A stretch of 64,000 nucleotides of DNA from Planctomycetota bacterium (GTDB taxonomy: Bacteria > Planctomycetota > Planctomycetia > Gemmatales > Gemmataceae): contig VGXS01000003.1 of the NCBI GenBank assembly GCA_016873225.1, positions 1 through 64,000 of the forward strand. Direction: 5' to 3'. The notes below the pieces were generated by a model that was not told the DNA's origin, did not search any database, and worked only from the letters and a program-made list of their open reading frames with translations. Below are positions 6,592-19,477 of this stretch, in pieces. The stretch's first letter is position 1, and the number at the start of each line of letters is the position of its first letter. A program made the translations under genes and the position numbers.

Positions 6592-7974
6592 ATGCACAGG
6601 CTGACCGACTTGCGCGAAATCCTGCGGTATGTGCCGAGGTTCCGCGACCGCCTGTTCGTGATCGCCATCGACGGCGCCGTCGTCGAGGACGAGAACTTCC
6701 GCAATGTGCTTCTCGACCTGGCGCTGCTCAAGAGCCTGAGGATCGGCGTGGTTTTGGTGCATGGGGCTCTGCACCAGATCCTCAAGCTCGCCGACCTCAC
6801 GAAGCAACAGCCCAGCAACCTGGACGGGTCGGGCATCACCGACGACGCCACGCTGCAACTGGCGCTGTTCGCCAGCAGCCGGGTGGCCTACGAATTGGTG
6901 GAGGGACTCGACGCGGCCGACCTGCACGGGGTGTCGGGCAGCTTCCTCGTGGCCCATCCCGCGGGCATATTGGGCGGGATCGACCACCAGTGGACCGGGA
7001 AGATCGAACGAGTGCAGACCGGCCTGATCCAGTCGCTGGTCGCCCAGGACATGGTGCCCGTGGTGTCGCCCGTCGGCGCCGATGGCGAGGGCAGGACCTA
7101 CCGGCTGAACTCCGACCATGTGGCGGTGGAGGTGGCCGCCGCCCTCAAGGCGGCCAAGCTCATTTTCCTGAGCACGCTGCCGGGCGTGACGCTCACGAAC
7201 CTGGCCTCGGAAAAAGCCTCTGGCGCGGTGAAGACGGCGATCGACCGGCAGCGCGAACCGTCGGTGGAGGGGTTGCTGAGGTCGTTGTCGCTGGAGGAGG
7301 CCGAGGCGGTGCTGGCGGGCCACCGCGCCGACATCGCTCCCGAATTGGCATCGAAGCTCGAGCAGGCGGTGCGGGGGGTGAAGCTCGGCGTGCCGCGGGT
7401 TCACCTGATCGACGGCAGGGTGAGCGAGGGCCTGTTGGCCGAGGTTTTCTCGAACCTGGGCGTGGGCACCATGGTTCATGCCAACGAATACCAGGCGATC
7501 CGCAAGGCCGCCAAGAAGGATGGGCGGGCGATCCTGAGCCTCATCGCGCAGGGAGTGGCCAACGACGAGTTGGTGCGCCGCAGCAGGGCCGAGATCGAGC
7601 GCACGGCGGAGGATTTCTTCGTGTTCGAGGTCGACAAGCTGCCGGTGGCCTGCGCGGCGGTGCACCTTCACCCCTCGGAAGGCAAAGCCGAGCTGGCGTG
7701 CGTGTGCGTCGATCCCCGGTTTGAAAACCGCGGCATCGGCCGCAAGATGATCGAATACGGCGAGTCGCTGGCCAGGCAGGCGGGAATGAGGGAGATGTTC
7801 CTGCTGTCGACCCAGGCGTTCAATTACTTCCAGCAGAAGGGCGGCTTCATACAAGGGTCGCCCGCCGACCTTCCGGTTTCGAGGCGTGAGAAGTACGACA
7901 AGAGCGGCCGGCGTTCGCTGGTGTTGGTGAAGCGGCTTGACGACGGTATCGGAAGCAACCATGGGGCCCGGTGA
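6592..7974 (+). CDS. argA: N-acetylglutamate synthase: amino-acid kinase fold plus GNAT domain
   Basis: A 460-residue protein for the first step of arginine synthesis: acetyl-CoA plus glutamate gives N-acetylglutamate. Residues 1 to about 290 have the acetylglutamate-kinase-like fold, with an early VIAIDGAVV strand and a VVLVHG-type loop. Residues about 305-455 form the GNAT acetyltransferase, with the acetyl-CoA loop in [10 protein letters not shown]. This architecture is that of classical ArgA rather than ArgB. The start is uncertain: ATG 6592, or an in-frame TTG at 6586 that is better spaced from GGGGGA (6573-6578). The last ten bases, including the TGA, are also the first bases of the tRNA-Leu gene. 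Confidence 0.88.
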
Positions 7975-8047
7975 TGGAATGGCAGACATGCAGGTCTTAG
8001 AAGCCTGTCTCCGTAAGGAGGTGCGGGTTCGAGTCCCGCCCGGGCCA
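7965..8047 (+). tRNA. tRNA-Leu (anticodon TAG)
   Basis: A class II tRNA. The acceptor arm is GGCCCGG/CCGGGCC with discriminator A at 8047. The D arm begins ATGGAATGGCAGACAT, the anticodon stem CAGGT/GCCTG encloses CTTAGAA (anticodon TAG), the long variable arm is CTCC-GTAA-GGAG, and the T arm is GCGGG-TTCGAGT-CCCGC. CCA is not encoded. Its first ten bases overlap the end of argA, including the stop codon, and larC begins 26 bp downstream on the same strand. Confidence 0.96.
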
Positions 8048-8073
8048 CTCGTTCGTGATGGGATGCGAAACTG

Positions 8074-9237
8074 ATGGCGCACCTGCACCTCGACCTCTTC
8101 AGCGGCATCGCCGGCGACATGCTGCTCTCGGCGCTCACCGACGCCGGTGCCCCCCTCGATCCGCTGCGGGAGGCGCTGGCGCGCCTCGACCTTCCGGTGT
8201 CGGTGGATGTCGAGGAAGTGTCCCACTGCGGCATCAGGGCGCTGCACCTCGTGGTGGAGGCGCCGGAGGAGCAGCCGGCGCGCAACCTGCCGGAGATCAC
8301 GGCACTCCTCGACCGGTCGGGCATTCCAACCCGGGCACGCGACCGGGCGATCGCCGCCTTCAGGGAACTGGCGGTGGCCGAGGCTGAAATTCATGGAACC
8401 ACGGTCGACAAGGTTCATTTCCACGAGGTCGGGGCGCTGGACAGCATCACCGACCTCATGGGGTGCGCCCTGGCGCTTGAGCTTCTCGGGGTGGACACGA
8501 TCAGCAGCCGGTCGGTACCGCTGGGCAGCGGCATGGTGACCTGCGAGCACGGCAGGATGCCGATTCCGGCGCCGGCGACGGCCCTATTGGCCCGGGGCAT
8601 GCCGGTGGCCAACCCGCCCGTCCCGGGTGAACTCACCACCCCCACCGGCGCGACGATGCTCAAGGCGTGGGTCTCGGAGTGGCGCGACCAGCCACCCGGT
8701 TACGACACGGTCGGCACGGGCGCGGGAACCCGCCGCTACATCGACCACCCCAACCTCCTGCGCGTGTTCCTGGACAGCCATGGCTCCCATCCGTGGAAAT
8801 CGGAACGGATCTCGAAGCTGGAAACCTGGGTCGACGATGTGCCGGGCGATGTCGTCGCCCACTTGCTGTCCTTGGCCCTGTCGGAGGGCGCGCTGGATGC
8901 CGCCGCCGTGCCCGCGGCGATGAAGAAGGGCCGTTCGGGGCACGCGATCACCATCCTGGCCCGGCCGGCCGACGCGGAAAGGCTCGCGCGGCTCATGTTC
9001 CGCGAGACCGGAACCCTTGGCATCAGGCACGGCGTCATCGAGCGCTGGATTCTGCCCAGGCGGCAGGGAACCGTGGAAACCCCGTGGGGAACCGTCCGCG
9101 TGAAGTGGGCCATGGTGGCCCCCCGGGATGAGCGCCCCGATCCCGAACACGACGACTGCGCCGAACTGGCTCGGCGGCATTCCGTTCCCCTCTCGACGAT
9201 CAGGAACGCGGCGATCGAAGCCGCCAGGCAGGACTGA
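8074..9237 (+). CDS. larC: LarC-like nickel-pincer cofactor metal-insertion protein
   Basis: A 387-residue member of the LarC/DUF111 family. LarC inserts nickel into the pyridinium dithiocarboxylate precursor made by LarB and LarE to form the nickel-pincer cofactor of lactate racemase-type enzymes. The N-terminal LDLFSGIAGDMLL, the HFHEVGALDSITDLMG block in the middle and the ELTTPTGATML block are family hallmarks, and the C-terminal half retains the metal-binding domain. It is a single unbroken frame, unlike lactobacilli, where LarC is made by a ribosomal frameshift. No larA, larB or larE is present in the window. alaS starts 6 bp after its stop, so the two are probably cotranscribed. Confidence 0.9.
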   Translation: MAHLHLDLFSGIAGDMLLSALTDAGAPLDPLREALARLDLPVSVDVEEVSHCGIRALHLVVEAPEEQPARNLPEITALLDRSGIPTRARDRAIAAFRELAVAEAEIHGTTVDKVHFHEVGALDSITDLMGCALALELLGVDTISSRSVPLGSGMVTCEHGRMPIPAPATALLARGMPVANPPVPGELTTPTGATMLKAWVSEWRDQPPGYDTVGTGAGTRRYIDHPNLLRVFLDSHGSHPWKSERISKLETWVDDVPGDVVAHLLSLALSEGALDAAAVPAAMKKGRSGHAITILARPADAERLARLMFRETGTLGIRHGVIERWILPRRQGTVETPWGTVRVKWAMVAPRDERPDPEHDDCAELARRHSVPLSTIRNAAIEAARQD

Positions 9238-17167: not shown

Positions 17168-17539
17168 TCAATTTGGCTTGGCCGGGAAAGACACGGTGAC
17201 ATTGGTACTGATACCACCGCGAGGGGTATACCTGCCCGCCAGTTCACAGCGCAAGGGCTTCACCACAGCCACGAAGTCATCAAGGATTCGGTTGGTGACG
17301 ACCTCATAAAACACACCCTGGTTCCGATACCTTTGGAGGTAGAGCTTGAGTGATTTGAGCTCCACGCAGCATTGGTCTGGAGTGTAGGTGAATGTGAGTG
17401 TGCCGAAATCGGGGTGGCCGGTCTTGGGGCACACCGTGGTGAATTCGGGGCAGACGATTTCGATTACATAGGCCCTTCCCGGCACCGGGTTGGGAAATGT
17501 TTCGATCTGGTCCCGTGATGGGGCTTCCGTGAGATTCAT
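17168..17539 (-). CDS. queF: NADPH-dependent 7-cyano-7-deazaguanine reductase (type I QueF)
   Basis: A 123-residue enzyme reducing preQ0 to preQ1 in the synthesis of queuosine, the modified base at the wobble position of tRNAs with GUN anticodons. The short length fits type I QueF. The nucleophilic Cys lies in [13 protein letters not shown], and [10 protein letters not shown] is the conserved QueF motif. The frame can be extended upstream to 17593, but the ATG at 17539, just before [17 protein letters not shown], fits the family. The helicase gene follows after 15 bp. Other queuosine genes are not in the window. Confidence 0.95.
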
Positions 17540-17591
17540 GACTATTCCAACCGACCCTAGGATCATCACTAATCCATCATAGTCAACGATC

Positions 17592-17621
17592 AAAAAAAAC
17601 GCCCCGGCATGGGTTTGCCGG
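17592..17621 (-). terminator. Rho-independent terminator after the HExxH membrane gene
   Basis: Read on the - strand, a 6-bp GC-rich stem (CCGGCA/TGCCGG with loop AACCCA) is followed by GGGC and a run of eight T. It lies 3 bp beyond the stop codon of the gene at 17624-18175 and upstream of queF, so it separates these two same-strand genes. Confidence 0.7.
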
Positions 17622-18211: not shown

Positions 18212-19477
18212 TTGGCGCCGTCAGAATTGTCCTCAGCCGCGAAAACGCGCCATGCCCTGATCGGCCTTGGAGCCAATCTTGGGGAACGGGCCTGTTCGCT
18301 CGCCTCCGCCCTCTCATGGATCAACAACACCGGTAAGGCCGAAATTGTCAGGCGCTCCTCGTGGATCGAAACAGACCCGGTTGGCGGCCCGGCGGGACAA
18401 CCGGCATTCCTCAATGGCGCCGCGATTCTTGAAACCCGCCTCGAGCCTTCGGAACTCATGGGGCTACTTCTCGAATGCGAGCGGGTCCATGGCCGCGTGC
18501 GCACCATCAAGGACGGCCCCAGGACGCTCGACCTCGATGTGCTCCTCATGGGCAACCTGGTCGTTGATTCCGCCGGCATCACCTTGCCCCACCCCCGAAT
18601 GCACGCGAGGAGATTCGTTCTGGCTCCGGCGGCCGAAATCGCGCCTGACTGGCTTCATCCCGTCAGCGGCAAAACGATGGCCGACCTGCTGGCGGCGCTG
18701 GACGGCACCAGGAGTTGGGGACCGGCGCCAGGAAAGGAACTGGCCGGCCGCACCGCCTTTGTCGCGGGTTCCAGTTCGGGCATCGGCAGGACTATCGCCC
18801 AGGAACTCATGCTGGCAGGGGCCAAGGTCCTGATTCATGGAAGGCGCGCGGATTTGCTGGCCAGCAATTTGGAGTCACTGGGCCACGGACACATCGCCAT
18901 CGAGGCGGACCTGTCGATTCCCGGTGCGGGGAAATCGCTTGCTGAGAGGGTTTTTGATGTGGCGCCCGAAACCGACATCTGGATTCAAAACGCCGGCGCC
19001 GACATTCTCACCGGCAGCGCGAGGCATGCTTCATTCGATGAAAAGCTGAAATCGCTTGTGCAGGTCGACCTGGTTGCCTGCATGGAAGCCTGCCGCGAGG
19101 CCGGCCGCCATCTCTCGCGGCGGGGAAACGGGGTGATCCTGACAATTGGTTGGGACCAGGCCGAAACGGGAATGGAAGGTGATAGTGGTCAACTGTTTGG
19201 TGCCACGAAGGCGGGAGTGATGGCCTTCACCAAGGCTTTGGCCGCTGATTTGGCCCCCAAGGTCAGGGTGAATGGCATCGCCCCGGGTTGGGTAAGGACC
19301 GCATGGGGAAACCAGGCGTCCGATGAATGGCAGAAACGGGCCGAGAGAGAGACACTCTTGCGGCGCTGGGGGGCACCCCAGGACATAGCAGCCTGTGCCC
19401 GTTACCTAGCAGGTCCGGGCGCGGAATGGATGACAGGGCAAATCATCAGGGTGAATGGTGGTGCTGTTCGATCTTGA
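18212..19477 (+). CDS. folK: HPPK (FolK) fused to an atypical short-chain dehydrogenase
   Basis: One unbroken 421-residue frame. Residues about 14-164 form 6-hydroxymethyl-7,8-dihydropterin pyrophosphokinase, which makes the pyrophosphate ester used for dihydropteroate synthesis. It has LIGLGANLGER, the DGPRTLDLDVLLMG active-site block with its magnesium-binding Asp pair, and LPHPRMHARRFVLAP. Residues about 176-421 form a Rossmann-fold SDR with VAGSSSGIGR, QNAGAD in place of NNAG, and a normal C-terminal NPG-like IAPGWVRT and VNGGA. The SDR catalytic Tyr of YxxxK is Phe329 (F-G-A-T-K333), and the usual catalytic Ser position reads TIGW, so classical SDR chemistry looks lost. The start is TTG 18212. 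A pterin or dihydrofolate reductase role (as in FolM/PTR1, also SDRs) is a tempting but unproven reading. Confidence 0.88.
   Translation: MAPSELSSAAKTRHALIGLGANLGERACSLASALSWINNTGKAEIVRRSSWIETDPVGGPAGQPAFLNGAAILETRLEPSELMGLLLECERVHGRVRTIKDGPRTLDLDVLLMGNLVVDSAGITLPHPRMHARRFVLAPAAEIAPDWLHPVSGKTMADLLAALDGTRSWGPAPGKELAGRTAFVAGSSSGIGRTIAQELMLAGAKVLIHGRRADLLASNLESLGHGHIAIEADLSIPGAGKSLAERVFDVAPETDIWIQNAGADILTGSARHASFDEKLKSLVQVDLVACMEACREAGRHLSRRGNGVILTIGWDQAETGMEGDSGQLFGATKAGVMAFTKALAADLAPKVRVNGIAPGWVRTAWGNQASDEWQKRAERETLLRRWGAPQDIAACARYLAGPGAEWMTGQIIRVNGGAVRS

Follow-up and report, generated by a model that had tools for sequence, protein, structure and literature searches.

A conserved FolK-SDR fusion of Gemmatales and an SDR family tied to methanopterin synthesis in planctomycetes

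Introduction

Why would a short-chain dehydrogenase (SDR) that lacks two of its usual catalytic residues be joined in frame to the pterin enzyme HPPK (FolK), and in which pathway would such a protein work? The question is raised by a gene in a window of 64,000 nucleotides, the whole stretch of planctomycete DNA analysed here. The original prediction, made from the sequence alone, described the fusion and the altered active site, and pointed to a pterin-related role with the folate-side reductases FolM and PTR1 as models. The FolK fusions described to our knowledge have FolB or FolP as partner, and a search of one literature library for a FolK-SDR fusion returned no description. Here we describe that the fusion is real and conserved and that its SDR family is linked to the synthesis of tetrahydromethanopterin (H4MPT), a carrier resembling folate. 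The original prediction thus pointed the right way with pterins, but the pathway is that of H4MPT and not folate.

The fusion gene and its HPPK half

The open frame runs through both domains without a stop codon (Table 1), and its GGAG-type ribosome site and TTG start are both kept in a sister genome (L038). Residues 17-145 match HPPK in PF01288 (E 5e-33; 114.4 bits, cut-off 25.7), and TIGR01498 gives the N-terminal half 120.4 bits against a cut-off of 54.1. Ten positions are invariant among fused homologues (N68, E90, R95, R97, R104, D107, D109, H127, R133 and F135), and we take them to correspond to the residues with which E. coli HPPK binds its pterin substrate, ATP and Mg. Judged by profile cut-offs and conserved residues, this half is a full FolK member that differs from the others by its fusion to an SDR. 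A domain profile search of the fusion found no domains other than HPPK and SDR. In a structure model of the whole protein both domains are confident, while the linker is weak at residues 167-169 and the domain arrangement is uncertain (pTM 0.63). One gene away lies a QueF-like gene, a pterin/deazapurine-type enzyme, which as far as seen is not a conserved neighbour.

Table 1. Features of the fusion gene and its surroundings, in coordinates of the window
Feature	Position	Strand	Residues	Remarks
folK-SDR fusion gene	18212..19477	+	421 aa	single open frame; TTG start
HPPK (FolK) domain	18260..18703	+	~17-164	PF01288, TIGR01498; active-site residues conserved
Interdomain linker	18704..18730	+	~165-173	low model confidence, pLDDT <50 at 167-169
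SDR domain	18731..19474	+	174-421	classical SDR fold; PF13561, AlphaFold2, Foldseek, VIA
Dinucleotide loop GSSSGIGR	18767..18790	+	186-193	classical GxxxGIG
D286	19067..19069	+	286	usual catalytic Asn position (our own placement); Asp in 94/94
Family signature GWDQAETGMEGDSGQLFGATK	19148..19210	+	313-333	near-invariant in 94 sequences
QueF-like gene (PF14489)	17168-17593	-		

A distinct SDR family with an altered active site

The C-terminal half is an SDR by profile and by structure. The profile adh_short_C2 (PF13561) matches residues 177-420 at E 4.9e-39, the AlphaFold2 model is a confident classical SDR fold (pLDDT 91.7), and many classical SDRs are recovered with a Foldseek TM-score of ~0.85 and a VIA Z of 30-32. 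These structure searches gave no substrate hint, the solved relatives being many equivalent classical SDRs. With enzymes such as FabG and glucose/ribitol dehydrogenase it has in common the fold, the GxxxGIG loop and the active-site Lys, at 25-35% identity; it differs from them by the absence of Ser and Tyr, by Asp at the Asn position and by its unique GWDQAETGMEGDSG region.

An alignment of 94 sequences places these differences in the whole family. The glycines and Ile of the cofactor loop (G186, G190, I191, G192) are found in 94/94 sequences, and the consensus GWDQAETGMEGDSG[QE]LFxxxK is nearly invariant, as are D264, K278, D286, R295, W360, T363, W365, W373, R376, E380 and W386. Within the signature, W314, D315 and Q316 stand at the Ser position, which reads G-W-D-Q and is never Ser in the aligned members; F329 stands at the Tyr position, and K333 is retained. 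Only the Lys is kept, then, of the Asn-Ser-Tyr-Lys catalytic set of classical SDRs, which bears out the loss of Ser and Tyr that had been read from the single protein. The Asp and Glu of DQAETG, to which attention had been drawn at the same time, and the Gln between them belong to the family signature and are no peculiarity of one protein.

A different alignment register could in principle have restored the Tyr. Two Singulisphaera orthologues (L095, L097) carry a Tyr in exactly the column of the Phe, four positions before the invariant Lys, which settles where the missing Tyr would lie; all other aligned members have Phe there. When a tree was built that also held other SDRs of planctomycetes and two of the FolM type, the family formed one clade (SH-aLRT 100). 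As far as alignment and tree define it, the family is therefore distinct, and its signature hardly varies. A diverged member is found in G404 (L177; C15:19484-20296), in which SWDQVDW replaces GWDQAET and an insertion of ~25 residues (SWDQVDWGMAGESGELF) is present.

Spread and origin of the fusion

In a protein search of 59 relatives, the full-length fusion was found in 39 of the 44 Gemmatales-like genomes (families f1 and f2). The five others, all Gemmataceae, also lack any HPPK but possess mch; genome incompleteness alone predicts 3.6 fusion-negative genomes against the 5 observed, and is probably the cause. In the other families of the class the SDR is a separate gene, accompanied by a separate HPPK, in 14 of 15 genomes.

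Public contigs give the same picture. Among the best 80 of 141 matches, all apparently from planctomycetes although a few bore unusual or vague names, 51 were fused, 28 stand-alone and one a truncated form of the fused type; the complete genomes among these 80 include one of each kind, fused in Limnoglobus roseus and separate in Singulisphaera acidiphila. A plasmid search for the SDR gave no match. An assembly or frameshift artefact, or a lost stop codon, is excluded: separate genes do occur in sister orders, yet the fusion recurs across dozens of assemblies, complete genomes included.

In a quick tree, constraining all fused forms to one clade was not rejected (p-AU 0.70), and the constrained tree was even more likely than the best one reached without the constraint. 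A single fusion event is thus the simplest reading. The SDR would ancestrally have been a separate gene of the H4MPT cluster; its fusion with folK probably happened a single time, in the ancestor of Gemmatales.

Co-occurrence and clustering with H4MPT genes

The pathway of the SDR is indicated by the genomes that possess it. In a sample of 392 genomes from the planctomycete phylum, with the SDR counted at E <= 1e-40, a first count gave 47 genomes with the SDR, each of which also has mch, and 50 genomes with mch. G404 had been scored negative because its match was split; with its diverged SDR included, 48/48 SDR-positive genomes have mch, 48/50 mch-bearing genomes have the SDR, and 0/342 genomes without mch have it (Fisher's test, p ~1e-59, relatedness ignored). 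The two mch genomes without SDR (G237, G403) belong to one family and lack AfpA too. At the family level the SDR occurs in twelve families, all twelve with mch. Within the same class both are absent from family f8, and G052 and G408 have neither.

The gene neighbourhood agrees. Near the 28 stand-alone SDR loci were found the DHPS-like gene (DUF6513) in 24 cases, DUF447 in 18, RFAP synthase in 17, fhcB in 13, fhcA in 10, fhcD in 6 and pabA/pabB in 4. In S. acidiphila the SDR is divergent beside fhcB, fhcA and fhcD, and downstream of it come RFAP synthase, DUF447 and, first of the three, the DHPS-like gene. Genomes of other classes have a run of mch, a RimK-type ligase gene, a CitG-like gene, PTPS, the SDR, the DHPS-like gene and pabB. 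The same H4MPT neighbours were seen at 0/52 fused loci, and the genome of the window has mch, PTPS and the DHPS-like gene on other stretches. The SDR locus of G045 (family f4; L209) is also without adjacent H4MPT genes.

Taken together, co-occurrence and clustering make it well supported that the SDR belongs functionally to H4MPT biosynthesis, and the fusion to folK backs this assignment independently of gene clustering. The pterin-related role foreseen for the protein is supported to that extent.

Some particular arrangements were noticed in and around these clusters. A CitG-like protein is fused to a PTPS-type protein inside the H4MPT cluster of G186 (L139:8517-9938, +). A pterin-4a-carbinolamine dehydratase (PCD) gene immediately precedes the DHPS-like gene in three loci (L136:11973-12332, L139:11102-11443 and L142:13151-13678, all +), the Pfam match having been checked for L136, to which the remaining two were assigned because they are similar. 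The complete genome G052, without mch or SDR, carries a DHPS-like gene (36% identity) beside pabB (L175:8733-10196 and 7180-8766, both -).

A candidate for the final reductive step

Which step of the pathway would the SDR perform? For the final step of H4MPT synthesis Methylobacterium uses DmrA and other bacteria use AfpA/DmrB, and the role of dihydromethanopterin reductase has been swapped between lineages among DmrA, AfpA/DmrB and DmrX (PMC6193120). In planctomycetes, a survey did not recognise an afp gene (PMC5020050). In agreement, AfpA/DmrB (TIGR02699) scored above cut-off in 0/31 planctomycete genomes, whereas two control genomes passed. DmrA was sought through PF01872, on the assumption that this profile detects it: in many genomes RibD_C matches just once, in a frame of the size of RibD, with no DmrA-like gene besides RibD. 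Of the 22 genomes searched, 11 show either further, weaker matches or no match.

Since the final reductase is prone to being swapped and the SDR is lineage-specific, we favour the final step. On balance, sequence evidence inclines us to regard the SDR half as the planctomycete dihydromethanopterin reductase and the fusion as a two-domain enzyme of H4MPT biosynthesis in Gemmatales. With DmrA, AfpA/DmrB and DmrX the SDR would have in common only the proposed reaction and the position in the pathway, being unrelated in sequence and fold to both the DHFR/RibD-like DmrA and the flavoproteins. An identity of the fusion with these enzymes was rejected: the SDR is not a TIGR02699 flavoprotein and no DHFR/RibD_C-type domain is present.

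The co-occurrence with mch and the cluster would fit equally well if the SDR performed another reductive step of H4MPT synthesis, most plausibly the one in which the ribofuranosyl ring is opened and reduced to give methanopterin its deoxyribitol. The pathway has at least one other reductive step, the conversion of the ribofuranosyl to the deoxyribitol moiety, and we know of no gene assigned to it. Several PDB relatives of the SDR are named glucose/ribitol dehydrogenase, which is a weak hint, the label being generic. Nevertheless, this step is common to the makers of H4MPT, and a gene shared with archaea and Proteobacteria, as the DHPS-like gene and DUF447 are, would be more natural for it; moreover, the role known to be swapped between lineages is that of the final reductase (PMC6193120). 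We regard this alternative as unlikely.

Framed more broadly, so as to cover either step, the proposal is firmer: an unrecognised SDR family without Ser and Tyr probably performs a methanopterin reductive step that has no known gene in these bacteria, be it the deoxyribitol ring-opening or the final reduction (there as a third unrelated enzyme type), and is joined in Gemmatales to HPPK, with which the supply of pterin to the pathway begins.

Folate or methanopterin

The fusion to folK suggests at first sight a folate role, the SDR being a dihydrofolate reductase that replaces FolA, or acting on dihydrofolate and dihydromethanopterin both. It had been anticipated that folA would be missing, and it usually is: a strong DHFR_1 match exists in 12 of the 59 relatives and none in 47. 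Furthermore, the SDRs FolM, PTR1 and TmpR do reduce dihydropterins (PMC1971073; NCBIfam names). Yet the SDR tracks mch and not folA, as it is present in 10/12 folA-positive and in 43/47 folA-negative genomes; because of this independence from folA, the pathway is read as that of methanopterin. The complete genome G052 lacks folA and SDR alike. A replacement of FolA appears decidedly unlikely on these grounds.

Nor is the SDR of the FolM/PTR1 type, which the original prediction had named as known reductases of pterins or dihydrofolate. The fusion SDR resembles FolM, PTR1 and TmpR in being an SDR of pterin metabolism, in its association with folK, near which they also occur, and in having an Asp near the Ser position; it differs by the absence of Tyr, by its separate clade and by following the distribution of H4MPT rather than folate. 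The TGX3RXG motif, the mark of FolM and PTR1 (PMC1971073), is replaced by GSSSGIG, and the NCBIfam pteridine reductase model NF006598 gives 109.9 bits against a cut-off of 288. A grouping with the FolM-type sequences was rejected by the tree mentioned above.

True FolM-type SDRs coexist with the family in two genomes of family f4. In an operon-like arrangement, G045 and G058 each have folB, a second folK and a FolM-type SDR whose loop reads TGGAVRIG and whose Asp and Tyr are present (L208, 8300-10407, and L217, 8500-10300, respectively), besides a separate first folK, no DHFR_1 match and the mch-linked SDR elsewhere in the genome. There the FolM-type SDR may be the folate-side reductase. A FolM-like gene is also found in a same-genus genome.

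Other genes deal with folate. Strong matches to DHFR (PF00186) and to ThyA (PF00303) coincide completely, being confined to one set of 12 among the 59 genomes (G012, G014, G017, G027, G032, G033, G034, G047, G049, G053, G056 and G057), often adjacent and regardless of the SDR; in the planctomycetes beyond these 12, both are absent or represented by weak fragments only.

An enzyme or a scaffold

The absence of the classical Ser and Tyr from nearly all members could also mean that the SDR has lost its activity and acts as a regulator or as a scaffold that binds pterins or nucleotides. Such a binding or regulatory function had been envisaged before; it is conceivable but less likely than catalysis, and a signature that hardly varies speaks against decay. 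Conservation in the protein is highest around the lost residues, neither the cofactor loop nor the Lys varies, and within Singulisphaera Tyr and Phe replace each other as though the hydroxyl could be spared, all of which make a pseudo-enzyme very improbable.

The PTPS motif is CE-x-LHGH, which presumably fits the forms that make 6-hydroxymethyldihydropterin. A biopterin-type SDR (like sepiapterin or dihydropteridine reductase), working with the PTPS and PCD genes that lie within some clusters, is scarcely credible, given this motif, the few clusters with PCD, the presence of PCD in G237 without SDR, and a tie to mch that would be left unexplained.

Proposed mechanism

Returning to the SDR as dihydromethanopterin reductase, we infer the following substrate, cofactor and mechanism, together with whatever channelling the fusion may allow. 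The HPPK half would pyrophosphorylate 6-hydroxymethyl-7,8-dihydropterin, as FolK does. Since no second HPPK was found in these genomes, its product probably goes into folate as well as into H4MPT. In turn, the SDR half would bind NADPH, to which the basic residues HGRR after the second strand give a hint, and convert dihydromethanopterin into its tetrahydro form, in place of DmrA and AfpA/DmrB, reductases to which it is unrelated.

In DHFR and PTR1, hydride from NADPH reduces the dihydropterin. By analogy, hydride would pass from the nicotinamide to the C6=N5 imine of the dihydropterin, with proton help from water or from an acidic residue, for example the Asp that is invariant in GWDQ; the alignment suggests D315 as the most obvious acid. 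The invariant Lys would hold the ribose of the nicotinamide, and stacking on the pterin may be the part of the invariant Trp residues, while the interchange of Tyr and Phe suggests that the hydroxyl is not needed.

Concluding remarks

Planctomycetes are central to the debate on the origin of bacterial H4MPT-linked C1 metabolism. An SDR that tracks the H4MPT pathway almost perfectly is a concrete and testable candidate for the gap at its final step in these bacteria (PMC5020050). If the proposal is true, this would be an SDR reductase that works without the Tyr by which catalysis in the superfamily is defined.
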